Source: Medakamo hakoo (taxonomy: Eukaryota; Chlorophyta; Trebouxiophyceae; Coccomyxaceae). Taken from it: DNA of 64,000 bases. A program made the translations under genes and the position numbers. The stretch lies in the NCBI GenBank assembly GCA_026636295.1, contig CP089462.1:1302001-1366000 (forward strand). The letters are read 5' to 3'. Below, piece after piece: positions 24,405 through 61,023 of the stretch (positions within the stretch are counted from its first letter, which is position 1; each line of letters opens with the position of its first letter). The notes below the pieces were generated by a model. The model ran no database searches. It worked only from the letters and a program-made list of their open reading frames with translations, and had not been told where the DNA came from.

Positions 24405-25682
24405 ATGTCTCGCCCGCCGTCTCGCACGGTGTTTGGTAGGTTTAAGAGAGCATGCAGGCGATGACGCGACAGCCTGGGCTTGGTAGCCGACTCGCGCGCG
24501 TGGCGAAAAGATGGGAGCACAGGCCCGTGCACGGCGTCGTTGTGTGCAATTCGCTCCGCCAGCAACCTGGCCCCTCCCCCCCCCTCTCCCCTCCATCTCA
24601 CACGGCGCCGGTGCGCCCCCTCCATCCCTTCCCACACACTCAAAACAGTCGGCAACCTGCCGTTTGGCATGACCGAGGAAATGCTGGCCGAGGTGTTTTC
24701 CGAAGTCGGGCCGGTGAAATCGTCGCGGTGCGTGTTTTGTTTTGCTGTGTGGTTTTCCCATCCCATCGCCATTCCCCCGCCATCCCCAGGCGCGCACACA
24801 CGGATCGCCTCACTCCCCCCCCCCCTCCAAAAACACAGCATTGCCATGGACCGTGAAACCGGCAAAATGAAGGGCTTCGGCTTCGTCCAGTTCTTCGACA
24901 TCCCCACCGCGACGGCCGCGATGCGCAACCTGAGCGGGCGCGAGGTGCTCGGCCGCCAGCTGCGTGTGAACTTTGCGGAGGAGGAGTCGGACGAGCCTGG
25001 CGCGCCGCCGCGGCGGCCGGGCGGGTCCGGACCGCCCGGACCGCCCGGACCAGGGCCCGGCGGGTGGGCGGGCGGCGGCGGCGGCGGCCCGCCGCTGGGG
25101 ATGGGCGCCGCGCGCGCGGCGGCCGCGGGCGCCGCGGCCCTCCTCGGCGCGCCCGGCCCGCCGCCGCCCGGCTCCGCCGCCGACGCCATCACGGCCGTCC
25201 TGGCCCGCAAGTCCCGGGCCGACCTGTGGGCGGTCCTGGCCCAGGTGCGCGCCCTGGCGGCGCGGGACGGGCCGGCCGCCGCGCGGCAGTTGCTGGTCAC
25301 CCACCCGCAGCTGGCCGCCGCGCTGTTCCAGGCGCAGGTCGCGGTCGGGCTGGTCGTCCCGCCGCCGCCCGTGCCGGGCGGCGGGGGGGGCGGCGGCGGG
25401 GGGCCGCCCCCGCCCCCGCCGCCCGCGCCGTACGGCAACGGGGCGGGGGGCGGGCCGCCGCCGCCGCCCCCGCCCCCGGCCCGGGCCCCCCCACCGCCGC
25501 CAGGCCCGCCGCCGCCCGCGGGCTTTGCCCTGCCGTCCGACCCGGCCGAGGCGGAGGGCCACCGCGCGATGCTGCGACAGGTCATGGCTCTCTCGCCCGA
25601 CCAGGTGGCCGCGCTGCCGCCGGACCACCGGGCCCAGGTCGTGGCGCTGCAGGCGTACGTGCGGGACCACGGCATGCCGTGA
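24405..25682 (+). CDS. CSTF2: Cleavage stimulation factor 64-kDa subunit (CstF64/Rna15)
   Basis: CstF64 binds the GU-rich downstream element during mRNA 3'-end cleavage. Three exons: 24405-24435 (31 bp), 24649-24727 and 24839-25682. The small first exon encodes MSRPPSRTVFV, and splicing restores RNP2 as VFVGNLPFGM, which fixes the start. The RRM ends with RNP1 KGFGFVQFFD and LGRQLRVNFAEEE. A hinge follows (SRADLWAVLAQVRALAARD, LLVTHPQLAAALFQAQVAVG), where the family binds CstF77 or symplekin. A Pro/Gly-rich linker leads to the C-terminal Pcf11-binding helical domain (LRQVMALSPDQVAALPPDHR, QVVALQAYVRDHG). At 317 residues it is shorter than animal CstF64 and near the size of yeast Rna15. It starts 260 bp from the divergent BSD gene. 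Confidence 0.92.
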
Positions 25683-25762
25683 GGGCGGCGCGAGGGAGGG
25701 AGGGGGAGGCGTGTTGTGTGTGTCTGTCCGGTTCACTTTTTTTTTTTGTGGCTGTGTGCCCC

Positions 25763-27907
25763 TCACAACCGCGCGCGCGCACTTGCTCCACCCCCACCAC
25801 CGCCCACGCCCGCCACGCCCGGCGGCAAAGCGTCGGCCACCTGCACCACCACCTTGCCCATTGAGCGCCCGCCCTGCAGCCGTGCGACGGCGGCGGCGAC
25901 GGACTCCAGGCCGACGAAGGGCGGGCGGCCGCCGTTGTCGTCCACGCACGCACGCAGCCGCCCGCCCGCCGTCAACCGGGCGAGCTTGGCAAAAGACGAG
26001 CTGAAGCGCTTGGCGTGGTGGAGGAGGAAAAACCCGTGGGCGGACGCGCCACGCCAGAGGAGCAGCTCTGGCAAGGCCAAGGCTGAGGCAGGCGGGGCGC
26101 CGGACCCCCAGCCGGGTTTTTTGTATTCCTCCATCATGCCTGTTTTTTGAGGGGGGGGGGGTGGAGGCGGTGAGAGAGGCAAGGATCAAAGGTGGCGGGC
26201 GTATGTAAAAAAAGGCGGACGCATGAAAAAACCCGACGCACCGATCACGATCACCCGGCCGCCCGTGCGCAGCGATTTGGCCACGGCCTCAAACGTGGCC
26301 CCACCCACGCTCTCCCACGCGACGTCGATGCCGCCCGGCGCGGCGGCTTTGATGGCGGCGGTCAGGGACTGGGCCGGGCCGAGGTTTTTGTAGTCGATGA
26401 CGGCCGCCGCGCCCAGGTCCCGCGCCCGCGCCGCTTTGTCGGGGCCGCCCACGACGACGATGACGCGCGCACCGGCGGCCGCGGCCAGCTGGACGACGAA
26501 TTGACCCGTCCCGCCGGCGGCCGCCGTGACCAAAACCGTGTCGCCCCGCTTGAGCGGGCGCCCCGCCAGGGCGACGGCCAGGCCGATGTCCGCCGTCAGG
26601 CCGGACGTCAGGAGAGCGACAGCGGCCGGCCCGGGCGGCAGCGGGCCCAGGCGCAGAGCCCTGTTGGCGGGGACTAGCCCACAGCACGCGTAGCAGCCGT
26701 ACCCAAGTTCGGCGACGCCGTCGCCCGGCGCCCAGCCGGTGACGCCCGGCCCGACGGCCGCGACGACGCCGACGCCCTCAAACCCGGCTTCGAACGGCGG
26801 CGTCGCCCCGCCGCCCGCGCGCGCGTACCGGCCCGCCGCAAAGTTGACGTCCGACGCGTTGACGCCCACAAAGGTGCGGCGGACGAGGAGGGTGCCGGGC
26901 GGCAGGCCGGTCCAGGCGCCGCCGGGTCCCCGGGCCAGCCCGGGGATGGGGGCGGGGCGGACGGCCGTCGCGGCGCCAAAGTCGGGCGACAGGCGGGTCA
27001 CGACGACGGCCCGGCGGGCGGCCGGGTCGACGGCGGATGCCCAGGCGGCCCAGGCCGACGCGTGCGGGTTGGGTGCGCGAGGCGGCCCGTCGCCTGCCCG
27101 CCCGCCCCCACCAAACCGGGCGCCCGCGTCCACCAGGTTGCCGCGCGGGTGCGTCCACTCCAGCAGCGCGCCCGTGGCGTGGACCATGAGCACGGTGCCG
27201 CCGGAGGCCGGGTCGGACGCCAGCGCCAGGGCCGCGGCCGCGACGTCGGCCGGGTCCAGGACGGGCACGCGGCCGGCCGGGCCTGCCGCCACGCGCGCGG
27301 CCGACCCGGCCGGCGCGCCCGCCGCAACCGCGCCCCGGTACAGCGCCGTCTCCACGGCTTCCGGGCACAGCGCGCTCAGGCGCACGCCCTGCCTCGCCAG
27401 CCCGGGCGCGGCCGACCGGACAAAGTGGACGAGGCCGCCTTTCGCGGCCGCGTACACGGGCGCGGCGGGCATGGGGTACAGCCCGCCGGCCGACGCGACG
27501 GCGACGACCGCGCCGCCGCCGCCGCCGCCGCGCGCCATCGCGGCCGCCGCCTCCCGCACGCCGCCGATCGCCGCCCGCAGGTCCACGTCCAGGCACTTTT
27601 GCCAGGCCTTGCCGTCAGACCCGCCAAAGACGGGCCCGGACTCGAAGATGCCGGCGTTGAGGACGGCGACGTCCAAGCGGCCGTAGGCTGTGAGGTGGCA
27701 GGCAAAGGCGGCCGCTTGGGCTGCGTCGTCAGTCACGTCGGCGGCCAGGCCTTGCGTGCGGACGCCGTGTGTTGACGCGAGGTCGTCCGCCAGACCGGTC
27801 GGTGCGGCCAGGTCGACGAGAGTGAGGTCGTAGCCTGCGCTGGCTAGAGTGCCAGCGACCGCGGCGCCGATACCGCGGCCGGCGCCCGTGACGAGGGCGG
27901 CCGGCAT
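25763..27907 (-). CDS. 15-PGDH-like SDR fused to PTGR3/ZADH2-like reductase
   Basis: A 680-residue two-domain oxidoreductase; exons 26242-27907 and 25763-26139, donor GTGCGT, acceptor AAAACAG, joined as VIVIG-MMEEYKKPGWG. Domain 1 (about 1-260) is a short-chain dehydrogenase: LVTGAGRGIGAAVAG, VLNAGI, and catalytic Tyr152/Lys156 in PVYAAAKGGLVHFVRSAA. Its flanks (GLYPMPAAPVY, GVRLSALCP, VLDPADVAAAALAL) resemble 15-hydroxyprostaglandin dehydrogenase. Domain 2 (about 330-680) is a zinc-free MDR of the ZADH2/PTGR3 type: VGVNASDVNFAAGRY, GDTVLVTAAAGGTGQFVVQL, AAVIDYKN, then GASAHGFFLLHHAKRF, PFVGLESVAAAVARL and MGKVVVQV. The end, ARL, is an accepted PTS1 variant. In animals these two activities oxidise and then reduce 15-hydroxy/15-oxo eicosanoids; the substrate here is unknown. 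It shares a promoter with an acyl-CoA oxidase. Confidence 0.88.
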
Positions 27908-28280
27908 GGCAGGGGGGAGGGGAGGGTTGGGGCGGTGGTCGGGGGTGTGGTGGGCGCGCGACTGCCGGCGAGCCACAAAAACGCGCCCGCCTCGGGCGGC
28001 GCAAACCGATTTTGGGCACCTCTTGCCCTGCCTAGAGTGTCCAAATGTACAGCGATCCGGCCTGTCCAGGCGGATGCCGCAGAGACAGGTGGATGCCCGC
28101 AGGCAGCGCGCCACAAGGCAACCCAGGCGCACACACACAGCCGAAGAAGGGGCGTGTGCGTATTTTTTTGTCTTCGTATCGCACCTCTCCTCACACCACC
28201 CATCCGCTCCCTCCCGCCTGGGGACACAGGCGGCGGCCGTTTCCACCGTCAAGGTCCCTCCCCTCTCACTCTCATCGCCA
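27908..28280. promoter_or_regulatory. Shared promoter of two peroxisomal enzymes
   Basis: A 373-bp spacer between the divergent starts of the SDR/PTGR3-like fusion (27907, minus) and the PTS2 acyl-CoA oxidase (28281, plus). A lower-GC stretch around 28000-28060 and a T run (about 28163-28170) are the only landmarks. No TATA box is obvious. The arrangement suggests joint control of the two genes. Confidence 0.5.
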
Positions 28281-30864
28281 ATGGACCGCCTCGCCGTCCT
28301 GCGCCGCCACCTGGAAGGCGGCGCCGCGCCTGGTCCATCCCTCTCGCCCAACCCGACGTCTGCCCGCGCGCTCGCGCCTGGCGGCGCGGGCGGCCGCGGC
28401 CTGCCCCCCGTCGACGCGGCCGCCGTGGAAGCCGTCCTGGACGGTCCCCGAGCCGGCATGAAGGCCGCCGTCTACGAAGTGTTCCGGGCGCACCCGGAGC
28501 TGCTGGTCCCGTGCACGGAAGACCTGACGAAAGGTAAAAAGGGAAGGCGGGGGAGGGCGCGAGCGCCTGATGAGGTGGCGGTGGAGAGAAAAAACGAATG
28601 GGGCCACCGGCACGGGTTCGGTTTCGGCCGTGTTCCTTCGCCATGCTCTACACACCTGACGTCGTCGACTCACGGCCGCGCCTGTGGCGTGGGCGCCGCG
28701 ATTCCGACGTGCGTGGGACCGTCGTCTTTCGCGGCGGCTGCTCGCCGGCCGCCGCGCCCCGTCATGCCTCGCGACGAAACCGACACCGCACGCCCCCTTC
28801 CCCGCCCGCCCCACCACCAGCCCAACACCGCGACCTGGTGCGCGCCATCCTGAAGACGGTCCTGGCACATGGGTGAGTTGATGTGGGGAGGGCGGAAGGC
28901 ATTGCGACGGCGGTCCGAAAAGCGAGGAGCATCGCGACGCGCCGCGTCTGTCGCCCTCACCCCCTCGTCCGTCCACTCCCACACCCATCCCACCTCCACC
29001 TCCCATGTCCAGCTACCACCCCCTCCGCCTCTTCGACACGGACATGCCCTCCTACTTTTTCCTGGGCGAACTCCTGGCCCTCGTCGACCTGTCCACCACC
29101 ATCAAGCTGGGCGTGCAGTACTCGCTGTGGGGCGGGTCCGTGCTGAACCTGGGCAGCGCCCGCCACCGCGCGGCGTACGCGGACAAGATCGACGACTTCC
29201 GCCTGCCGGGCTGCTTCGCCATGACGGAGCTGGGCCACGGCTCCAACGTGGCCGCCCTGAAGACGGAGGCGGTCTACGACCCGGCCACCGACGAGTGGGT
29301 CATCACCACGCCCGACGACGGCGCGCTCAAGTGGTGGATCGGTAACGCGGCTGAGGACGGGCAGGCCGCGACGGTCTTTGCCCGCCTGAAAGTCCCGCCG
29401 CCGCCGCCCGGGCCGGCGCCGTCCCGGGCCACCCCTAAGGTCGGCCCGGACGGCCTGGTCGACCACGGCGTCCACGCGTTTGTCGTGCCCATCCGGGACG
29501 GCCGCCGGTGCGAGGAGGGCCTGCTGCCGGGGGTGGAGGTGATCGACTGCGGCACGAAAGTCGGGCTGCAAGGCATCGACAACGGCGCCCTGCGCTTCAC
29601 GGGCGTCCGCATCCCGCGCGAGAACCTGCTGGACCGGTTCGCGACCGTCGGGCCTGGTGGCGTGTACGCGTCGAGTCTGTCGCCGTCCGCCCGCTTTGGC
29701 GCGACGCTGGGCGAGCTGACCGGCGGCCGGGTCGGCCTGGCGGGCGCGTCGGTCTCCGTCCTCAAGGGCGCCGTCACCATCGCCGTCCGCTACGCGGCCA
29801 CCCGCGTCCAGTTTGGGCCGCCCGGCGGCCCGGAGGTCGCCGTCCTGGACTACCCGTCCCAACAGTCCAAGCTCGTGCCGCTGCTGGCGAATGCGTACTG
29901 CCTCCACTTTGCCGTCCAGTCGCTCGTCGGCGCCTACGTGTCCGCCAAAGCCGCGGGCAAGGCGGCGAGCGCGCCCGGCGCCCCGCCCGGCGCCCGGGCC
30001 GTCGCGGACGCGGCGGCGGGCGAAGTCCACGCCCTGTCGGCCGGCCTGAAAGCGTACGCGACGTCGTACACGGCCCGCGCGCTGTCGGTCTGCCGGGAAG
30101 CGTGCGGCGGCCACGGGTACGCGGCCGCCAACCGGCTGGGCGCCTGGCGGTCGGACCAGGACATTTTCGTGTCGTTCGAGGGCGACAACACCGTGCTGCG
30201 CATGCAGGTGGCGGGCGCGCTGCTCAAGCGGTACCGCGAGCGGTTCGCCGGCCACCCGCTGGCCGCGTCGACCGCCTTCCTGCGCGCGTGGGCGGGCGGC
30301 GCGCTGCCGGCCAACCCCCTCCTCGCGCACGACACCTCGCCCCGCCACCTGCGCGACCCGGAATTCTTGAAGTCGGCGCTGCGCCACCGCACCCGGCGGC
30401 TGTTGTTCACGGCAGCCGCGCGCCTGCGCAAGCACTCGACCGGGCCCGGCGGCGCCTTCGCCGCGTGGAACAAGTGCGCGCCCCACTTGCTGGCCCTCGC
30501 CAACGCGCACGTGGAAGCCACAATCTACGAGGCCGCGTCGGCGGCGGCTGCGTCCGCCCCCGTCGCCGGCGGTGTCCGCCCGTCCCTGAAAGCCATGGCC
30601 GACATCTTCGCGCTGACGGCCATCGAGGCGGACGTGACGTACCGCAACGACGAGTCGGTCGGGGCGGACAAGGCCAAAGCGATTTCGCGGCTGCTGGAAT
30701 CCCTGCGCGCCGACGTGGCGGGCGTCGCCCTGCCCCTCGTCGCCGCGTTCGCCATCCCGGACCACATCCTGCGCGCGCCCATTGGCGTGACGGGCGTGCT
30801 GGACGCGGCCGACCCGTACGCAGCGTACCTCGCGTCGACCGGGTGGCGGGGTCGCAAAAAATGA
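28281..30864 (+). CDS. Peroxisomal acyl-CoA oxidase with PTS2
   Basis: Second acyl-CoA oxidase, 718 residues; exons 28281-28533, 28821-28872 and 29013-30864. The N-terminus MDRLAVLRRHLEGG contains R-L-x5-H-L, matching the type 2 peroxisomal signal, while the C-terminus (GWRGRKK) has no PTS1. This is the reverse of the oxidase at 9670. Family blocks: the 52-bp exon 2 (QHRDLVRAILKTVLAHG), YHPLRLFDTDMPSYFFLGEL, the flavin block MTELGHGSNVAALKTEAVYD, LKWWIGNAAEDGQ, EACGGHGYAAANRLG and IFVSFEGDNTVLRMQVAGA, with the catalytic-type Glu near residue 490. The sequence resembles plant ACX3/ACX2 more than ACX1, so the two genes are old paralogues, probably with different chain-length preference (inferred). 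Confidence 0.93.
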
Positions 30865-52207: not shown

Positions 52208-54790
52208 ATGTCCGACCGCCGCCAGCCGGCGCCGGCTGGGCGGGGACCCTCCCCGTCCGGGCGGCCCGGTCTGGCCGGCGCAGGCCCTGGCGGGGGCGGT
52301 GGCCAGGCGGGCGGCGGTAGTGCGCCAATTCCAGTACGCGGCGGCGGCGGCGGCATTGCTCGCCCGACTGCGGCAGGCGCTCCGTCCGCCGGCCCTCAGC
52401 CACGCCCGGCCGCAGCTGGAGCAACGTCAGCAGCAGCACCAGCTCCTCCTATTCCGGTAGGCCGCCTGGCCTCGCGCGGGTCGGCCGTGCGCCTGGCGTC
52501 GGCTGGCGCGGAGGCAACCGCGCCGCCGGGCCTGCTACCGCCCCAACCCGGCCCGTCTGGCCCACCACCCCCCGTCCTGCGTCCGTCCGGTCCCTCCCGC
52601 GGCGGCCTGGACGCGCCGGCCTTGGACGTGCGCGGCGTCCTGCGCAAAGCCGGCGCCCCCACCCGCACGCTCTCCCGCGCGGGCGCCCTGTTCCAACCCC
52701 TCCTGCCGCACGCGGAGACGCCCGGGCCGTCGGGCCGGTCGACGCCCGGCGGCGGCGGCGGCACCGCGCGCCGGGCGTGGACGTCCTCCACGGCCGGCGG
52801 CGGCGGTTCCCTGGGCACCTGGTTGAAGGTCGACCCCGACGGGCGGGCCGAGCCCGTGCTGGTGGGCCGGCGCCCGCTCATGGCCGAGCTCGGCCTCGCG
52901 CCGCGCGACCTGCGCCTGCTCGACCCCCAGCTCGCCGCCTCGTACCCGTCCGCCATCCTCGCCCGCGGGCGCGCGCTGCTGGTCCGCCTGGAGCACGTCC
53001 GCGCCATTGTGACGACGCGGTGGGCGCTGATTCAGGAGTGGGAAGCGCCCGCCGCGGCGACTTTTGTGCGCGCGCTGCGCGCCCAGCTCGGCCGCGAGGA
53101 CGGCGGCGGGGCCGGCGACGGCGGGCGCGGCGGGAAGCCGTCCAAGGGCGGCAAGGGCGGGGCGCGCGCCGGCCTGGCCCGCGCGGGACGCGGCGTCGTC
53201 CGCGCTGCCGCGGCCCTGGCACGCAAGTCGGCCAGCTCCGCCGTGGAGGTCGGGAGCGCCGCCGGCGCGGCGCCTCCGTGGCCGCTCGCGCCCAACCCGC
53301 ACGTGGGCGGGCCGGGCCCAGCCCTCGCGCCCGGCGGTGGCGCGGCGGCAGCAGCGGCGGCGACGCCCGCGGCGGGCGCAGCCAGACCAGCCCCACCGCC
53401 GCCCAAAGCCCCTGCCTCCGCCCTGACCCCGGCCCGCGGCGGCACGGCCCTGGGCGTCGCCTCCCCCGCGTCCGCCGCCGCCCTGCCGTTTGAGCTGCGC
53501 GTCGTCGAAGTCGCGCTGGACTCGGTCGCCCGCCACTTTGCCGTCGCCGCCGCAGCCGTCGAAGCGGCGGCCGGGCCGTGCCTGCGCATGCCCACCGCCA
53601 CAAAGCTGACGACGGACTTCCTGCAGCGCCTGCGGGGCGTGAAGCAGCGCGCGGCCGTGACGCGGATCAAGCTGGAAACCGTGCGCGAGGTGTTGGAGCG
53701 CCTTCTGGACGACAGGGGGGCCATGGTGGCGATGCACCTGTCCGCGACCGAAGCGGCGGAGTCGGCCCGTGAAGCCGTCGCGGCAGCTGCCGCGGGAGGC
53801 GGGGGCGGGAGCGGCGGCGGCGGGAGCGGCGGCGGGCCCGACGACGCCGCGCGCCAGTGGGCAGGCCTGTCCGCGGCGGCCGCCCGCCTCGTCCGGCGCT
53901 CAGGCGGCGGCCCGCTCTTCTCCCGCCTTGCGTCACCCGCCTTACTGGGCCGCCTCTCCTCGTCTGGCGGCCCGGGCGGCAACAGCGCCGGGTCGGCCGC
54001 CCTGGCGGCTGCCCTAGACCGCGCGTCGGCCGGCGGCGTGCCGGGCACGCCGGGCTCGGCCGGCGGCACGCCCGCCGCCGCCGCCGCGGCCGCCGCCGCC
54101 ATCTCCGCCGCGGCTACACTGGCTGCCGCGCTGGACCGACGTTCCCTGTCCGGCACCGCCCCCGCCCGTGGCTTGGCCGCGTACTTGGCCCGCCCCTCTG
54201 GCGGGTCCGACGCCGGGATGGGCGGCGGCGGTGGCGGCGGGTGCGAGGAGGGCGAGCCCGGCGACGAGGCGGACCACCCTTCCAAGAAAAAGGACGAGGC
54301 CGTCGACCCGGAGGACGCCGTGGAAATGCTGCTGGAAACGTACCTGGCCACCCTGGACGCCGCCCACGCCCGCCTGGAAGCCCTGGACGAGCACGTCGAG
54401 GGCGTCGAAGACCTGATCGACCTGGAGCTGGACGCGTTCCGCAACAACAACATGAAGCTGCGCCTGGCCGTCAACGCGGCCGGCCTGGTGGCGTTCGTGG
54501 TGTTCGCCATCTCGGGCTTCATGGCCATGAACCTGGCCCAAAAGTGGCGGGCGGCCGAGGTGGACGGCGGGCCGGGCGGCCAGGCGCGCAAAGTGTGGCC
54601 GCCCGGCAGCACGGCCGCGTTCGTCCTGGTGAGCATGGGCACGGCCGGCGGGTCGGTCCTGGCGCTGATGGGTTACCTGGTGTACCTGCACAAGCGCGGG
54701 CTGGGGCCGACGTCCATCACCACGCTCACGACGACGAGCGGGCCGGCGGCGGTCACGACGACGGCGCGCGGGCCGGAGGGGTGGAGGTGA
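52208..54790 (+). CDS. MRS2-like paralogue with AMN in place of GMN
   Basis: An 860-residue single-exon gene 143 bp downstream of the first MRS2 gene, same strand. It keeps the fold-defining blocks (LAPRDLRLLDPQLAASYPSA, RALLVRLEHVRAIVTTRW, PFELRVVEVALDSVARHFAV, VKQRAAVTRIKLETVREVLE, EMLLETYLATLDAAHARLEA, LIDLELDAFRNNNMKLRLAV), so it is a real paralogue. At the pore entrance the sequence is ISGFMAMNLAQ: the invariant Gly of GMN is Ala773. In studied CorA/MRS2 proteins GMN changes generally abolish Mg2+ transport, though a few homologues naturally differ. It also has a longer Gly/Pro-rich N-terminus and a Thr-rich tail. It may be a regulatory or differently selective subunit mixing with its neighbour. 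Absence of an intron suggests independent decay or a retro-copy origin. Confidence 0.9.
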   Translation: MSDRRQPAPAGRGPSPSGRPGLAGAGPGGGGGQAGGGSAPIPVRGGGGGIARPTAAGAPSAGPQPRPAAAGATSAAAPAPPIPVGRLASRGSAVRLASAGAEATAPPGLLPPQPGPSGPPPPVLRPSGPSRGGLDAPALDVRGVLRKAGAPTRTLSRAGALFQPLLPHAETPGPSGRSTPGGGGGTARRAWTSSTAGGGGSLGTWLKVDPDGRAEPVLVGRRPLMAELGLAPRDLRLLDPQLAASYPSAILARGRALLVRLEHVRAIVTTRWALIQEWEAPAAATFVRALRAQLGREDGGGAGDGGRGGKPSKGGKGGARAGLARAGRGVVRAAAALARKSASSAVEVGSAAGAAPPWPLAPNPHVGGPGPALAPGGGAAAAAAATPAAGAARPAPPPPKAPASALTPARGGTALGVASPASAAALPFELRVVEVALDSVARHFAVAAAAVEAAAGPCLRMPTATKLTTDFLQRLRGVKQRAAVTRIKLETVREVLERLLDDRGAMVAMHLSATEAAESAREAVAAAAAGGGGGSGGGGSGGGPDDAARQWAGLSAAAARLVRRSGGGPLFSRLASPALLGRLSSSGGPGGNSAGSAALAAALDRASAGGVPGTPGSAGGTPAAAAAAAAAISAAATLAAALDRRSLSGTAPARGLAAYLARPSGGSDAGMGGGGGGGCEEGEPGDEADHPSKKKDEAVDPEDAVEMLLETYLATLDAAHARLEALDEHVEGVEDLIDLELDAFRNNNMKLRLAVNAAGLVAFVVFAISGFMAMNLAQKWRAAEVDGGPGGQARKVWPPGSTAAFVLVSMGTAGGSVLALMGYLVYLHKRGLGPTSITTLTTTSGPAAVTTTARGPEGWR

Positions 54791-55752: not shown

Positions 55753-57080
55753 TCACTCGGCGCCCAACGCCCGCCGCGACACCATGGACGCCGTGTCCAC
55801 CAGGCGGCACGCGTACCCCAGCTCATTCTGGTACCACATGTACACCTTGACCAGGCGGCGGTCCACCACCTGCGTGCAGGCGGCGTCCACGATGGACGAC
55901 CGCGTGTCGGACACGTAGTCGGACGAGACGAGGGGGCGGGTCTCGTAGCCGAGGATGCCGGCCAGGTCGCCCTGCGCCGCGGCGCGCAGCGCGCCGTTGA
56001 CTTCGTCGACGCTCACGTCCCGCCCCACCTCGAAGACGCCGTCCGTCAGGGAGGCGTTGAGCAGGGGCACGCGCACGGCCAGGCCGTTGAGCTTGCCCTT
56101 GAGGTCCGGGAAGATGAGGGCGATGGCGCTCGCGCTCCCCGTCGACGTCGGCGCCAGGTTGGTCATGCCCGACCGCGCCCGGCGCAGGTCGGTCTTCTTG
56201 GCGTTGGTCGCGTCCACGATCGTCTGGGTGTTGGTCACGTCGTGGATGGTGGTGATCGCGCCGCGCACGATGCCAAAGGTCTCGTGCAGCACCTTGACGA
56301 CGGGGGCCAGGCAGTTGGTGGTGCAGGACGCGGCGGTCAGCAGCGCGTCCGCGTCCGGGTCGTAGGCGTCATGGTTGACGCCGTACACGACATTGAGGAC
56401 GGGCGCGTCCGCGTCCTTGACGGGGGCGGCGACGACGACCGACCGCGCGCCGCCCGCGTCGAAAAACGGCTGCAGGGCGGCCCGCGTCAGGAACTCGCCA
56501 CTCGCTTCGATGACCAGGTCGATGCGCCCCGTCCGGTCCCAGGGGATCTGCGCGGTGTGGGTGTGGGTGTGGGGCGGGGGTGGGGGGTGGGGGGCGGGGG
56601 TGTGGGGTGTGGGGTGGCGTGTGGGGTGTCGGCGGCGTGGAGTGCTGCCTCCCCGCTCTCCTCCCCCCAGGGAGGAGGCGAGGATTTGGAGCGGGCCAGA
56701 GAGGCCGGCGCGGCGGCCGATCCCGACCTTGAAGGCCGAAAAAAAAAAAAGGTTCCCCTGCCCCCTCCCCCCTCTGTGTGAGCACGCACCTCTGCCGGGC
56801 TGGCCGCCCGGGAGTAGCCGACCTCCACCACGTCCCCACCCCCTCCCGGCAGCTTGACGGTGAATCCGGACCCATCCTCGCGCACGGCCGTCTCGCCCCA
56901 CGCCGCGTGCGTCGAGTCGAACTGGAGCAGGTAGGCCGCGCTCTCGACGGCGCCGAGTTCGTTGACCCAGACCACGTCAAAGGGCGCGCGCACGCCGTCG
57001 TTGTGCCAGCCCAGGGCACGGCGGTGGACCAGGCGGCCGATGCGGCCGTAGCCATTGATCAGGACGCGTGGGCGGGGCAT
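55753..57080 (-). CDS. GAPDH of the ArsJ-associated type
   Basis: Glyceraldehyde-3-phosphate dehydrogenase, 361 residues; exons 56790-57080 and 55753-56547 (GTGCGT...CGCGCAG, phase 0). Rossmann motif [17 protein letters not shown]; active-site [18 protein letters not shown] with catalytic Cys near residue 172. The sequence does not look like glycolytic GapC. It matches the bacterial GAPDH subtype encoded beside ars[21 protein letters not shown] (Asn-Glu in place of the usual NAD-binding Asp), [79 protein letters not shown] and [19 protein letters not shown]. In bacteria this enzyme uses arsenate to make 1-arseno-3-phosphoglycerate. It is divergent from the PGK gene and near an ArsJ gene. The intron indicates a resident eukaryotic gene, not contamination. 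Confidence 0.93.
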
Positions 57081-57398
57081 TTTGGTGGTGTGAAACCGGG
57101 GTTTACTATTTTTTTTTGTTCTTCGCATCGCGTTCACCGCTGCGGCACTCACCCGACTTTATTCTTCCCGTGGCCTTCCGTTTTTTCCACGGCGCACGCG
57201 CGCGCCCGACCCGGCCGGAGCCAGGCCCCCCCGGTGACCTGGCCGCACGCCAAAGGCCAGCGGAGGCGCGCCCATCCAAAGAAAGCGGCCGCGGTCCACG
57301 GGAAAGGAAAAAGGGAGCCCCGCTGGTGCCGCCCCGCACCCCCCTCTCCCTTCCCCAGCACCTCTCCCTTGTTTGTTCCTCCCAGCACCTCTCCCATC
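57081..57398. promoter_or_regulatory. Bidirectional promoter, GAPDH / PGK
   Basis: A 318-bp spacer between divergent ATGs. It includes a T run at about 57110-57117, an AT-richer block (57100-57190), and a pyrimidine-rich leader before the PGK ATG with a tandem CAGCACCTCTCCC (two copies between 57356 and 57396). The head-to-head layout would allow common, perhaps arsenate- or phosphate-responsive, control; no known element was recognised. Confidence 0.5.
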
Positions 57399-59000
57399 AT
57401 GTTCGTCTCCTGCCCGCTGCCGCCGGGCGCGCCCGCCCCGCCGCCGCCCGGCGCGGGGCTGACGTGCCGCTTTCCCTGCGGGGCGACCAGTCCGGGACGG
57501 TGGGAGGGCGAGCGCGTGACGTGCGCCCTGCCGCCCGGCGTGGATGCGGCGGCCGCGGCGACGGTCGAGGTCGCCACGCCCGCCACGCCGCCGCCCGGCG
57601 CCGCCCCCTCCGTCGCCTGCTGCGGCGGCCGGCCGTGCGGGCCGGGGACCGTCATCACAGCCCCGGCCGCGGCCGAGCCGCCCGCCTGGATGGCGCGGGC
57701 GTGCGTGGACGGCCTGCCGCGGGCCGCGCTCGCGGGCAAGGCCGCCTGGGTGAGGTCCGACCTCAACGCCCCGCTGACGGCGGACGGGTCCGTGGCGGAC
57801 GGCTCCCGCCTCGCGGCGGCGGTGCCGACGATTGCGTACCTCCTGCAAGCGGGCGCGCGCGTCGTGGCCGTCGCCTCGCACCTGGGCCGGCCGGCCGGGC
57901 CCGAGCCGGCCCTGTCACTGCGCGCCGTCGCGCCCGCGTTTGAGGCCGCGCTCCGCGCCGGCGGCCTGCCGGGCGCGGCCGTCACCTTTGTCCCCGCGTC
58001 CACGGGGCCGGCCGTGGCGGCCGCGGTGCGCGACGCGCCCCCCGGGGCCGTCCTCCTCCTGGAAAACGTGCGTTTCCACGGCGACGCGGAGACGGGCGCC
58101 GACCAGAGCGCCCTGGCGGCCGCGCTCGCGCCGGCGGCCCTCTTTGACGTCGTTGTCAACGACGCGTTCGGCGCCGCCCACCGGGCCCACGCGTCCACGG
58201 CCGGCGTGGCGGCGGCCGCGCGGGCGTCCGGCCGCCCAGCCGTCGCGGGCCTGCTGATGCGGGCTGAGCTGGCCGCGCTCGGCCGCACGCTCTGCTGCCC
58301 GGCCCGCCCGCTGGTCGCGGTCGTCGGCGGGGCCAAGCTGTCGACCAAGGCCCGCATCATCGCGCGCCTGGTCGGCCACGCCGACGCGGTCGTCCTGGGC
58401 GGCGCGCTGGCGACCACGTTCCTGGCGGCCCTGGCGGGCGGCGGCGACGGCGGCGCCGCGGCCGTGGGCGGCGGCGTCGAGCCGGCCGAGTTCCCGGCCG
58501 CGCGCGCGGCCGCGGCCGCGGCGGCCGCGGCCGGCACCCGCCTCATCCTCCCGGCCGACGTCGTCGCCGCGCCGCGCACGGCCGACGGCGGCGGTTGGGA
58601 CGTGGCCCGGGCACTGGTCGTGCCGGCGACGGCCGTGCCGCCCGGCTTCACCGCCCTGGACGCGGGGCCGGCCACGGTGGCGGCGCTGTCCGCGCTCGCG
58701 GCCACCGCCGGCACCGTCGTCTGGAACGGGCCGTTTGGCCTGGCCGAACACCCGGCTTTCGGCGCGGGCACGGCCGGCATCGCGGCCGCGCTCGCGCCCC
58801 TGGCGGCCGCCCGCGGGACGACCACGATCGTGGGCGGCGGCCACTCTGTCGCGGCCGTGGCTGCGGCGGGCCTGCTGCCGTCCGCCTTCTCCCACGTCTC
58901 CACGGGCGGGGGCGCGACGCTGGAGTTGTTGGAAGGCGTCGTCCTGCCGGGCGTGGCGGCGCTGGACGCGGGGCCGGGCCTGGCGGGCGTGTGTGATTGA
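57399..59000 (+). CDS. Phosphoglycerate kinase homologue with N-terminal Cys module
   Basis: PGK moves the phosphate of 1,3-bisphosphoglycerate to ADP. Single exon, 533 residues against about 400-420 usually; the extra about 110 residues are N-terminal. They contain LTCRFPCGATSPGRWEGE, VTCALPPGVDAAAAATVEV and a second Cys-rich bit (ACCGGRPCGPG). The PGK core begins near 118: WVRSDLNAPLTADGSVADGS, VASHLGRPAGP, LLLENVRFHGDAE and VNDAFGAAHRAHAS hold the 3-PG-binding Asp, Asn, Arg and His residues. The C-lobe has VVGGAKLSTKARIIARLVG, WNGPFGLAE and VSTGGGATLELLEGVVLPG. The nucleotide loop is GGGHSVAAV with His482 where most PGKs have Asp (GGGDS). It starts the plus-strand pair with ArsJ. Confidence 0.9.
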   Translation: MFVSCPLPPGAPAPPPPGAGLTCRFPCGATSPGRWEGERVTCALPPGVDAAAAATVEVATPATPPPGAAPSVACCGGRPCGPGTVITAPAAAEPPAWMARACVDGLPRAALAGKAAWVRSDLNAPLTADGSVADGSRLAAAVPTIAYLLQAGARVVAVASHLGRPAGPEPALSLRAVAPAFEAALRAGGLPGAAVTFVPASTGPAVAAAVRDAPPGAVLLLENVRFHGDAETGADQSALAAALAPAALFDVVVNDAFGAAHRAHASTAGVAAAARASGRPAVAGLLMRAELAALGRTLCCPARPLVAVVGGAKLSTKARIIARLVGHADAVVLGGALATTFLAALAGGGDGGAAAVGGGVEPAEFPAARAAAAAAAAAGTRLILPADVVAAPRTADGGGWDVARALVVPATAVPPGFTALDAGPATVAALSALAATAGTVVWNGPFGLAEHPAFGAGTAGIAAALAPLAAARGTTTIVGGGHSVAAVAAAGLLPSAFSHVSTGGGATLELLEGVVLPGVAALDAGPGLAGVCD

Positions 59001-59313
59001 GAAAACCCCCAAGAAACACAGGGGTGTGTCGTGCGTGTGTAAACAAGTGTGTGTCTCTCTCCCCCCCTCTCTCTCCCCCTCTGCAGAATCTTTTTCACCG
59101 GCGCGGAGAGCCAACACGTTCACACACGCGCGCACGCGTTTCGCCGTGCCGCCACCCCTCCCGGTCCCGCCCCTTACCTGTGGTCGACCAGCGTGTCTGG
59201 CTGACCGCCCGGATTGGCATTGGACGGAGTGCGTGGCCCGCCCGCCCGCACGCGCCGCCGTTCTTTTTTTCTCCCCCGCGCCCCCGCGCAACCTGGCCCG
59301 CGCCCCCGACCAC
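59001..59313. other. Spacer between PGK and ArsJ genes
   Basis: A 313-bp interval on the same strand. It holds a GTGCGT at about 59030 and a good pyrimidine-tract acceptor (CCCCTCTGCAG, ending at 59086), so a 5'-UTR intron of ArsJ is possible. The ArsJ frame is open backwards through the whole spacer, but lacks an ATG and looks non-coding (His/Thr/Arg-rich). Confidence 0.5.
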
Positions 59314-61023
59314 ATGCACCACGCCGCCCGCCTGGTCTGCTCCCTCTCCGACGGCGGCGGCGGCGGCGGCGCCACCGGCCCGCCGGCCTCCTCCACCGCC
59401 GCTTTACGCTGCCGCTTCCCCGACGGCCAGGTCGTGCCGGCCACGCGGGAACCGGAGCTGGGCGCGGGCGCGGTGTCGTGCCCCTGCCCGCCGGGCGTGA
59501 CGACCGCGGCCGGCGCGGTCGTCGAGGCGGGCCCGCCCCCGCCGCCGCCGCCTGGTCCCTGGCCCGCCCGCCTGCGGGCCAAGGCGTCCCGCACCTGCGG
59601 CGGCGCCCTGCTGCCCTACTCCATCATCTCCCTGTCCTACATCCTGTTCACGCTGACGGACGGCGCGCTGCGCATGGTCGTCCTCCTCCACGCGGCGGGC
59701 CTGGGCTTCTCCGCCCTGGCCCTGGCGGCCGTCTTTGCCGGCTACGAAGCCGCGGGCGTCCTGCTCAACTTTGGCGCGGGCGTCCTGGCCGCCCGGTACG
59801 GCATCAAGGCCACGCTCATGGCCGGCCTGGCCGCTCAGCTGGTCGCGCTGGCCGCGCTGTTTGGCTGGGACCGGGCCTGGGCGCCCGGGCCCGGGCCGGT
59901 CGCGTTCCTGGCCGCCGTCCAGGTCCTGTCCGGCTGCGCCAAGGACCTGGTCAAGCTGGGCGGCAAGGCCGTCACCCGCCTGGTCACGCCCGAGGAAAAG
60001 GCGGGCCGCCTCTTCCGCCTGGTGTCCTGGATCACGGGCGCCAAAAACTCGGCCAAGGGGCTGGGCTACCTGGCGGGCGCCGCGCTGCTGACCTGGTCGT
60101 ACTACGCGGCCCTGGCCTTTTGCGTGGTCTGCGTCGGCGCCGCCTTTCCCTGGGCGGCGGCCGCCCTGGACAAGGACCTGGGCCGGGCGCCGGGCAAAAA
60201 AGGCGTGACGCTGCGCCAGGTGTTCACCTCGCTCAACGCGCGCGTGGGCGCCCTGTCCGCCGCCCGCTTCTGCCTGTTTGCGTCCCGGGACCTGTGGTTT
60301 GAGGTGGCGCTCCCCTTTTTCCTGCGGGCGCCCGTCAGCGAGGGCGGCCTGGGCTGGTCCCGCCTGGCCGTCGGCGCCTTCCTGGCCGCCTGGATCGTCG
60401 CGTACGGCCAGGTCCAGGCGCACGCGCGGTCCTGGCCGCTCGCGCCGCTGGGCCAGGCCCCGCCCAACGCGGCGGCGGCCGCGCTGTGGGCGGGCGTGCT
60501 GGTGCCGCTGCCCGCCGCCGCGGCCGCGTGCCTGTACGCGGGCGGCGGCAGCGCGCTGTTCGGCCCGACCTCGCCCCGGGGCGCGGCCGTGTCGACGGTC
60601 GCAGCCCTGCTCGCCGCCTTTTGCGTCGTCTTTGCCATCAATTCCGCCATCCACTCCTTCCTCGTCGTCCGCTACGCCGACGGCGACAAGGTGGCGACGA
60701 CCGTGGGCGCGTACTACGCCTCCAACGCCGGCGGCCGCCTGGTGGGCACGCTCCTGTCGGGCGTGTTGTACACGCTCGCGCCCGGCACGCTGCCCGCGCG
60801 CTTTGGCGCGTGCCTGGCCGCGTCGGCCGCCTTTGCCGCGGCGGCGGCGGGGCTGGCGGCGGCCATCCCGGACCCTGACCGGGGGCTGCGGTGCGGTCCG
60901 TGCCTGGTGCTTGGCGGCGGAGCAGAGGGCGGAGCAGCAGAGGGCGGAGCAGCAGAGGGCGGAGCAGGGGGTGCAGCGGCGGTGGGTGGCGGCGGCGCCA
61001 CCGCCGCCCACCAAGCGACGTGA
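59314..61023 (+). CDS. arsJ: ArsJ-type organoarsenical efflux permease
   Basis: Major-facilitator permease, 569 residues, single exon. In bacteria ArsJ exports 1-arseno-3-phosphoglycerate made by its partner GAPDH, giving arsenate resistance. ArsJ-specific blocks: FTLTDGALRMVVLLHAAGLG (first helix region), FAGYEAAGVLLNFGAGVLAA, VLSGCAKDLVKLGGKAVTRL, TPEEKAGRLFRLVSWITGAK (then NSAKGLGYLAG), LSAARFCLFASRDLWFEVAL and VGAFLAAWIVAYGQVQA. These match the family consensus (LTDGALRM, SGIAKDLNKMSAKSA, GRLFRWVALLTGSKNALKG, GARDVWFVVGLP). About 12 helices are visible. The N-terminal 90 residues are extra and resemble the PGK extension: LRCRFPDGQVVPATREPELG, AVSCPCPPGVTTAAGAVVEA. The C-terminus has AEGGA tandem repeats. 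Location, plasma or vacuolar membrane, is not shown by the sequence. Confidence 0.92.
   Translation: MHHAARLVCSLSDGGGGGGATGPPASSTAALRCRFPDGQVVPATREPELGAGAVSCPCPPGVTTAAGAVVEAGPPPPPPPGPWPARLRAKASRTCGGALLPYSIISLSYILFTLTDGALRMVVLLHAAGLGFSALALAAVFAGYEAAGVLLNFGAGVLAARYGIKATLMAGLAAQLVALAALFGWDRAWAPGPGPVAFLAAVQVLSGCAKDLVKLGGKAVTRLVTPEEKAGRLFRLVSWITGAKNSAKGLGYLAGAALLTWSYYAALAFCVVCVGAAFPWAAAALDKDLGRAPGKKGVTLRQVFTSLNARVGALSAARFCLFASRDLWFEVALPFFLRAPVSEGGLGWSRLAVGAFLAAWIVAYGQVQAHARSWPLAPLGQAPPNAAAAALWAGVLVPLPAAAAACLYAGGGSALFGPTSPRGAAVSTVAALLAAFCVVFAINSAIHSFLVVRYADGDKVATTVGAYYASNAGGRLVGTLLSGVLYTLAPGTLPARFGACLAASAAFAAAAAGLAAAIPDPDRGLRCGPCLVLGGGAEGGAAEGGAAEGGAGGAAAVGGGGATAAHQAT

Follow-up and report, generated by a model that had tools for sequence, protein, structure and literature searches.

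What brings a glyceraldehyde-3-phosphate dehydrogenase (GAPDH), a phosphoglycerate kinase (PGK) homologue, and an ArsJ-type permease side by side in a green alga? In the window, the 64,000-nucleotide stretch of the Medakamo hakoo genome analyzed here, genes for the GAPDH (minus strand), the PGK homologue (plus strand), and the permease (plus strand) all lie inside 5.3 kb. The locus is very probably a green-algal ArsJ-type arsenate-detoxification neighbourhood, in which the gap-arsJ pair came from bacteria and the PGK was recruited later in algae. The GAPDH3-type (ArsJ-associated) GAPDH gene (55753..57080, minus strand, 361 aa) has two exons (57080-56790 and 56547-55753). Between them, a GT-AG spliceosomal intron of 242 bp in phase 0 (56548..56789, minus strand) is predicted from the sequence, with probable splice sites at 56789 and 56548 and a reading frame continuous across the join. 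The 318-bp intergenic region (57081..57398) between the divergent GAPDH and PGK genes is, by its position only, presumed to hold a shared bidirectional promoter. The divergent PGK homologue of 533 aa (57399..59000, plus strand) is followed by the ArsJ-type MFS permease of 569 aa (59314..61023, plus strand). These gene models match the coordinates given in the first-pass annotation.

The cluster is flanked by ordinary nuclear genes, MRS2-like and DNA polymerase delta. GC3 of the cluster genes is 0.93-0.95 and their codon use correlates at 0.94-0.96 with that of three flanking genes pooled, indicating host-like codon use. The earlier claims of host-like codon use and of domestication, the latter also based on the GAPDH intron, thus hold. 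Contamination as the source of the cluster was ruled out by the intron, the host codon use, and the nuclear neighbours.

The type of the GAPDH was assigned by profile, tree, and motif. Among 10 NCBIfam families, NF033735 (ArsJ-associated GAPDH) gave the top match with 439.6 bits, which is below its curated cut-off of 450, yet the protein is placed within the ArsJ-linked clade. It contains the ASCTTNC motif. In a 60-row tree (44 ArsJ-linked rows, the window GAPDH counted, and 16 canonical rows), it joins the 43 bacterial ArsJ-linked GAPDHs in a single split with 100/99 support, with GapA and GapC of M. hakoo on the other side. Nine further rows labelled canonical had been dropped as duplicates of ArsJ-linked rows. 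The ArsJ-partner identity proposed earlier is supported, and kinship with ordinary glycolytic GapC, for which a phylogeny had been suggested as the check, is not found. In the same tree, one Vibrio and two cyanobacterial rows cluster with the M. hakoo GapA, and two cyanobacterial rows with its GapC. Phage records matching the GAPDH numbered 27, every one below 60% identity.

The permease matched NF033734 (MFS_ArsJ) with 343.1 bits (E 2.3e-102), its sole NCBIfam match at E<=0.001. Since this score is below the equivalog curated cut-off of 400, we name the protein an ArsJ-type homologue rather than a certified ArsJ. The first-pass annotation had called it a clear ArsJ-type permease and named a place outside the ArsJ clade as a refutation. 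The profile bears out the ArsJ type, and the clade question was checked by profile and not by tree, as the rows of the ArsJ tree were ArsJ homologues only. In that tree the permease branch is very long (4.45), and the donor lineage could not be placed. A contig scan with the window permease alone as the query gave no matches, whereas a scan with an alignment query worked. Three ArsJ relatives were found in the viral contigs scanned; a viral origin was rejected, and the one viral relative in the tree groups with an alphaproteobacterial plasmid row.

A bacterial gapdh-arsJ pair was reportedly described by Chen et al. in 2016 (cited in PMC7826186). The M. hakoo proteins are 51-57% (GAPDH) and 38-41% (permease, in an alignment of eight proteins) identical to seven plasmid-borne relatives. 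The pair is co-directional in the seven annotated plasmid loci, whereas the M. hakoo GAPDH and permease genes lie on opposite strands. We surveyed 88 bacterial arsJ loci with flanks of at most 8 kb and found GAPDH at 83 and PGK at none, which makes the later addition of PGK to a gap-arsJ pair the likelier history. Thus PGK is indeed outside the classical bacterial pair, as previously noted. The same order of events was proposed for green algae (Foflonker & Blaby-Haas, 2020; PMC7826186).

The GAPDH3-PGK-ArsJ clusters of green algae were described in that paper, with Chlamydomonas arsJ and PGK3 mutants reported as arsenate-sensitive. The M. hakoo locus is a neighbourhood of this known kind and is not new as a cluster; the first-pass annotation had called such clustering in a eukaryote unusual. 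Both have the same three gene families (GAPDH, PGK, and ArsJ; GAPDH3 and PGK3/PGK4A in the published clusters) in physical proximity, and the GAPDH is distinct from GapA and GapC in both. A PGK homologue distinct from the canonical PGK is reported in most, but not all, genomes with the neighbourhood. According to the text of PMC7826186, PGK clustering is tied to Chlorophyceae (PGK3) and Mamiellophyceae (PGK4A), and the trebouxiophyte PGK2 is not proximal, whereas M. hakoo is a trebouxiophyte whose PGK sits in the cluster. The published eukaryotic arsenate-resistance cluster is now extended to a compact trebouxiophyte. In Cyanidiales red algae, ArsJ is reported as monophyletic with that of Viridiplantae (PMC9812998), but it is described there alone, without the GAPDH-PGK cluster. 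The var operon of Vibrio cholerae (ArsR, ArsJ, VarG, and VarH; PMC9601151) resembles the M. hakoo locus in combining ArsJ, a GAPDH, and a third enzyme, although this enzyme is a phosphatase in V. cholerae and a PGK homologue in M. hakoo. The third enzyme of the operon is thought to act on the arseno-ester, with a dearsenylation role proposed for VarH.

By analogy with its bacterial relatives, the GAPDH would convert arsenate and glyceraldehyde-3-phosphate to unstable 1-arseno-3-phosphoglycerate. The permease may then clear cytosolic arsenate, with either this ester or arsenate released from it as the cargo; we leave the cargo at these two because free arsenate was concluded to be the main export of ArsJ in V. 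cholerae (PMC9601151). The PGK homologue may bind 3-phosphoglycerate or the arseno-ester and help carbon back to triose phosphate; the Chlamydomonas PGK3 mutant is arsenate-sensitive. The function first suggested for the cluster, arsenate resistance, is well supported by the GAPDH clade, the ArsJ profile, and the published algal mutants; its acquisition as an intact bacterial gene set is not.

The PGK homologue belongs clearly to its family (PF00162, 343.6 bits against a cut-off of 27) and retains 55 of the 60 columns invariant among 36 bacterial PGKs. Its GGGD motif reads GGGH. The Asp, present in all 36 bacterial PGKs, is a ligand of the nucleotide Mg (PMC7729029) and is replaced by His482. 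The basic-patch residues of the 3-phosphoglycerate site, taken from PMC7729029 and matched by motif, are retained (D121, N123, H161, R164, R225, and R262). On the nucleotide side, the conserved lysines K313 and K317, Asn443, and Glu450 are also retained. Due to the loss of the Asp, the simple step in which PGK recycles 3-PGA with ATP is weakened, and we call the protein a PGK homologue with putative, unproven kinase activity. A single-sequence structure model was uninformative (mean pLDDT 46.8). In a free PGK tree without algal PGK rows, the protein lies outside the fully supported cyanobacterial clade. However, a clade with cyanobacteria was unrejected (p-AU 0.377), as was one with Actinomycetota (p-AU 0.425), and across these two groups, Proteobacteria, Gammaproteobacteria, Verrucomicrobiota, and Acidobacteriota, no clade was rejected (p-AU 0.13-0.43).

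The cluster PGK may, as a minority possibility, be the general PGK of the Calvin cycle and glycolysis, the canonical plastid gene having been lost and the cluster location reflecting dual use or chance. It was the only PGK detected in the genome by a PF00162 search and by a search with one cyanobacterial PGK as the query (E<=10), and the coded pattern GGGD[S/T]VAAV had no match across the genome. Like searches recovered GapC, the intron-split GapA, and two TPI genes, and 98.6% of the RNA-seq reads are reported to align to the contigs (PMC9871001). On the other hand, a canonical PGK could have been missed, because the six-frame search takes no account of introns and BUSCO completeness of the assembly is 89.5% (PMC9871001). 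The cluster PGK shares 44-50% identity with five bacterial PGKs, whereas the values for the M. hakoo GapA and GapC against cyanobacterial homologues are 63-67%. Its N-terminus is, by eye, unlike an ordinary transit peptide, and its Mg-ligand Asp is His. If it did serve as the sole PGK, a core photosynthetic enzyme would have been exchanged for a detoxification paralogue.

We consider it unlikely that the PGK homologue has ceased to make ATP as a normal kinase does and instead binds 1-arseno-3-phosphoglycerate, speeding its breakdown or handing it on, a role like the one proposed for VarH. The retained 3-phosphoglycerate site together with His482 would fit this role, and the proposed function of VarH is a precedent for dearsenylation (PMC9601151). 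However, the retained K313, K317, Asn443, and Glu450 argue that the nucleotide is still bound, and the protein must be an active kinase if it is the sole PGK.

The PGK homologue and the permease have in common an N-terminal extension of ~75 residues (within residues 1-100 of the PGK homologue, 57399..57698, and residues 1-95 of the permease, 59314..59598, both on the plus strand). Their local alignment score of 136 was reached by 0 of 500 shuffles. When the PGK extension, whose coding region has a GC3 of 0.95, was searched against the genome, the permease extension was the second-best place (E 6.7e-4); lower matches on C7 and C4 (E 0.05 and 0.57) were judged spurious by eye from their translations. 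The extension is not present in the seven plasmid ArsJ proteins aligned. There is a hint only that it is a TIG domain: the PGK extension matched Pfam TIG_plexin at E 0.039, under the cut-off, the permease extension had no TIG or other Pfam match, and a fold search with a structure model of mean pLDDT 56.6 placed plexins at ranks 2-5 (E 0.55-1.0), with no match at E<=0.001. It is conceivable, though rather doubtful, that the cluster PGK took over from the canonical plastid PGK as the sole PGK or, its metal site changed, specialised in handling the arseno-ester, and that the common beta-rich domain joins it to the permease, so that the unstable ester is passed from enzyme to exporter. The parts of the PMC7826186 text covered here do not describe the GGGH motif, sole-PGK status, or the common extension. 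The altered Mg site, the apparent sole PGK, and the permease-shared extension offer a handle on the role of the algal PGK, and all are testable.

A central-carbon cluster without an arsenic role, whose permease carries phosphoglycerate or another metabolite, is very improbable. Two homologues of glycolytic enzymes do adjoin an MFS carrier, and this explanation was raised, and argued against, in PMC7826186. The GAPDH falls in the ArsJ-linked clade and not with GapA or GapC, ArsJ is the only NCBIfam match of the permease, and the Chlamydomonas mutants are arsenate-sensitive (PMC7826186). Although the three genes are tightly clustered, the single transfer of an intact bacterial gap-pgk-arsJ set, the joint acquisition first suggested, is hardly credible with PGK at 0 of the 88 bacterial loci.

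One difference from the published neighbourhood concerns other arsenic genes. A genome with the green-algal ArsJ-type neighbourhood would be expected to lack the alternative arsBHC neighbourhood. Neither ArsC nor ArsH was recognized by eye within 1.5 kb of an ACR3 homologue at C2:791631-792617. This homologue, with 275.6 bits against a cut-off of 282.8, is an additional gene in M. hakoo.

The window spans C1:1302001-1366000. The cluster in it consists of a two-exon GAPDH of 361 aa on the minus strand (55753-57080), followed on the plus strand by a PGK homologue of 533 aa (57399-59000) and an MFS permease of 569 aa (59314-61023). Flanking genes code for an MRS2-like transporter and DNA polymerase delta (3' end), along with one unnamed open frame. 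All three cluster genes resemble these neighbours in codon use (r 0.94-0.96), which marks the cluster as nuclear algal DNA. The flanking MRS2-like magnesium transporter (PF22099; 52208-54790, plus strand) carries AMN near 54524, at the position of GMN, the usual signature of these transporters.

The first-pass annotation read these genes as a GAPDH-PGK-ArsJ cluster and a candidate arsenate-resistance system. The cluster is real and its function was correctly read, yet it is of a known kind, since a conserved GAPDH3, PGK and ArsJ neighbourhood in green algae is described in passages of PMC7826186, and the clustering is repeated in part of PMC9812998. PMC7826186 was the only paper found in our search for ArsJ in Trebouxiophyceae, or for ArsJ with phosphoglycerate kinase in Chlamydomonas. 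Neither 'arsen' nor 'PGK' occurs in the main text of PMC9871001, the paper describing the M. hakoo genome. The additional features described below are leads worth a short follow-up.

The GAPDH matched 10 families, of which NF033735 (ArsJ-associated GAPDH) ranked first with 439.6 bits, just short of its cut-off of 450. For the GAPDH tree, 81 ArsJ-linked GAPDHs were thinned to 43, nine of 23 GAPDHs from nine genomes were removed as copies of ArsJ-linked rows, and two of the alga's own enzymes were added, GapC and GapA (the latter as three exon pieces). The window GAPDH grouped with the 43 bacterial ArsJ-linked rows and apart from all 16 canonical rows (support 100/99), a split present in 100% of 200 bootstrap trees. 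GapA joined rows of Calothrix, Cyanobium and one Vibrio, and GapC joined Calothrix and Cyanobium rows. Inside the ArsJ-linked clade of this tree no nearest donor was resolved (end branch 1.1). In the GAPDH intron (56548-56789), 12 consecutive T lie about 40 bases past the 5' splice site, and a tract rich in GT/CA has matches to short segments of five other contigs. On contig C13, triosephosphate isomerase is matched at 25451-26203 and the GapC C-terminal domain is encoded some 2 kb further downstream on that strand (28317-28787), so that 25451-28787 holds a second neighbouring pair of glycolysis genes.

The sole NCBIfam match of the permease was NF033734 (ArsJ) at 343.1 bits, below the cut-off of 400, and Pfam gave only a sub-threshold MFS_1. 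Its identity to seven plasmid ArsJ proteins was 38-41%. In a tree of 51 rows (the permease and 50 of 89 collected sequences), built from ArsJ homologues alone without a non-ArsJ outgroup, it sat on a very long branch (4.45) closest to three Actinomycetota rows, a placement of which we are unsure. The C-terminus of the permease (60900-61023) is a low-complexity Gly/Ala/Glu repeat, missing in all seven aligned plasmid ArsJ proteins, and GC3 falls to 0.68 over the last 55 codons.

Joint acquisition as a bacterial gap-pgk-arsJ set, which the first-pass annotation raised as a possibility, appears unlikely. We collected 88 bacterial arsJ loci with flanks of 4-8 kb, some ending early at contig ends. 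Eight were plasmid-borne, chosen among 66 plasmid records that matched, and the other 80 were the best of at least 579 in GTDB genomes. Of the 88 loci, 83 contained a GAPDH-coding stretch and none a PGK (tblastn, E<=1e-5, within these flanks). With the same PGK query, 13 bacterial PGK loci retrieved separately scored 191-282 bits, indicating adequate sensitivity. PGK is thus outside the bacterial gap-arsJ pair within the sampled loci, which makes an intact three-gene transfer improbable. PMC7826186 proposes, in the section concerned, a bacterial origin of GAPDH and ArsJ as one unit, with PGK3 recruited at a later stage.

From 43 PGK loci, seven of which were too short, 36 bacterial PGKs were aligned with the window PGK, which retains 55 of 60 invariant columns, including 3-phosphoglycerate-binding residues (named in part of PMC7729029 and matched by motif, not structure). 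Two lysines, Asn443 and Glu450 are also retained. Where the Asp after the Gly-Gly-Gly motif stands in 36/36 bacterial PGKs, a direct Mg ligand of the nucleotide according to the same portion of PMC7729029, the window PGK has His482. Further departures include Glu230 (Ala), Ser358 (Gly) and Phe449 (Ala).

This altered homologue may be the only PGK of M. hakoo, which we regard as a lead rather than a result. In the 15.64-Mb genome (16 contigs), a PF00162 profile and a cyanobacterial PGK query (E<=10) both found the window PGK as the single place, and the coded pattern GGGD[S/T]VAAV had no match. Control searches recovered GapC and the intron-split GapA down to a piece of 25 residues, and two TPIs, each a long uninterrupted stretch. 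The genome paper states, in its assembly passages (PMC9871001), that 98.6% of the authors' RNA-seq reads align to the contigs, which favours true absence of a second PGK; however, the assembly has 89.5% complete BUSCOs, and the PGK searches ignore introns. Also weighing against a sole PGK, a photoautotroph needs an active enzyme, which fits badly with the lost Mg ligand.

By analogy with relatives, for which others have reported both activities, the algal GAPDH would make 1-arseno-3-phosphoglycerate and the permease would reduce arsenate in the cell. Which species is exported is a matter of dispute; PMC9601151 argues, in the portion cited, for free arsenate, with the phosphatase VarH breaking the ester. 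The PGK homologue may work on the 3-phosphoglycerate side, by recycling or, considered because its Mg site is altered, by handling the arseno-ester, much like the role proposed for VarH. Passages of PMC7826186 report poor growth on arsenate of Chlamydomonas insertion mutants in ArsJ and in PGK3, and suggest that PGK3 and GAPDH3 recycle 3-phosphoglycerate remaining after arseno-ester hydrolysis, the enzymatic role of PGK3 being described there as not known. Alongside the ArsJ route, this genome holds an ACR3-type homologue on contig C2 (791631-792617; 275.6 bits, slightly below cut-off), which suggests a capacity for arsenite efflux too. No ArsC or ArsH was recognised by eye within 1.5 kb of this homologue.

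The PGK homologue and the permease have N-terminal extensions in common, likely but not certainly of shared origin. PGK residues 10-81 and permease residues 19-96 align with 34 identities over 72 aligned residues (score 136), which 0 of 500 shuffles reached. Against 575 long-open-frame segments of the window, the PGK extension scored at most 94 and the permease extension at most 85 with an unrelated one. The permease extension scored 113 against its own antisense frame, indicating strong composition bias. A genome search that used the PGK extension as query ranked the permease extension second (E 6.7e-4). Translation is supported by the open frames and by a GC3 of 0.95. Recent DNA duplication was rejected as the source of the extensions, since the identical residues share the third codon position in 23/34 cases against 19.4 expected. 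A weak match of the PGK extension to TIG_plexin (E 0.039) and a beta-rich, low-confidence predicted model hint at an Ig-like piece.
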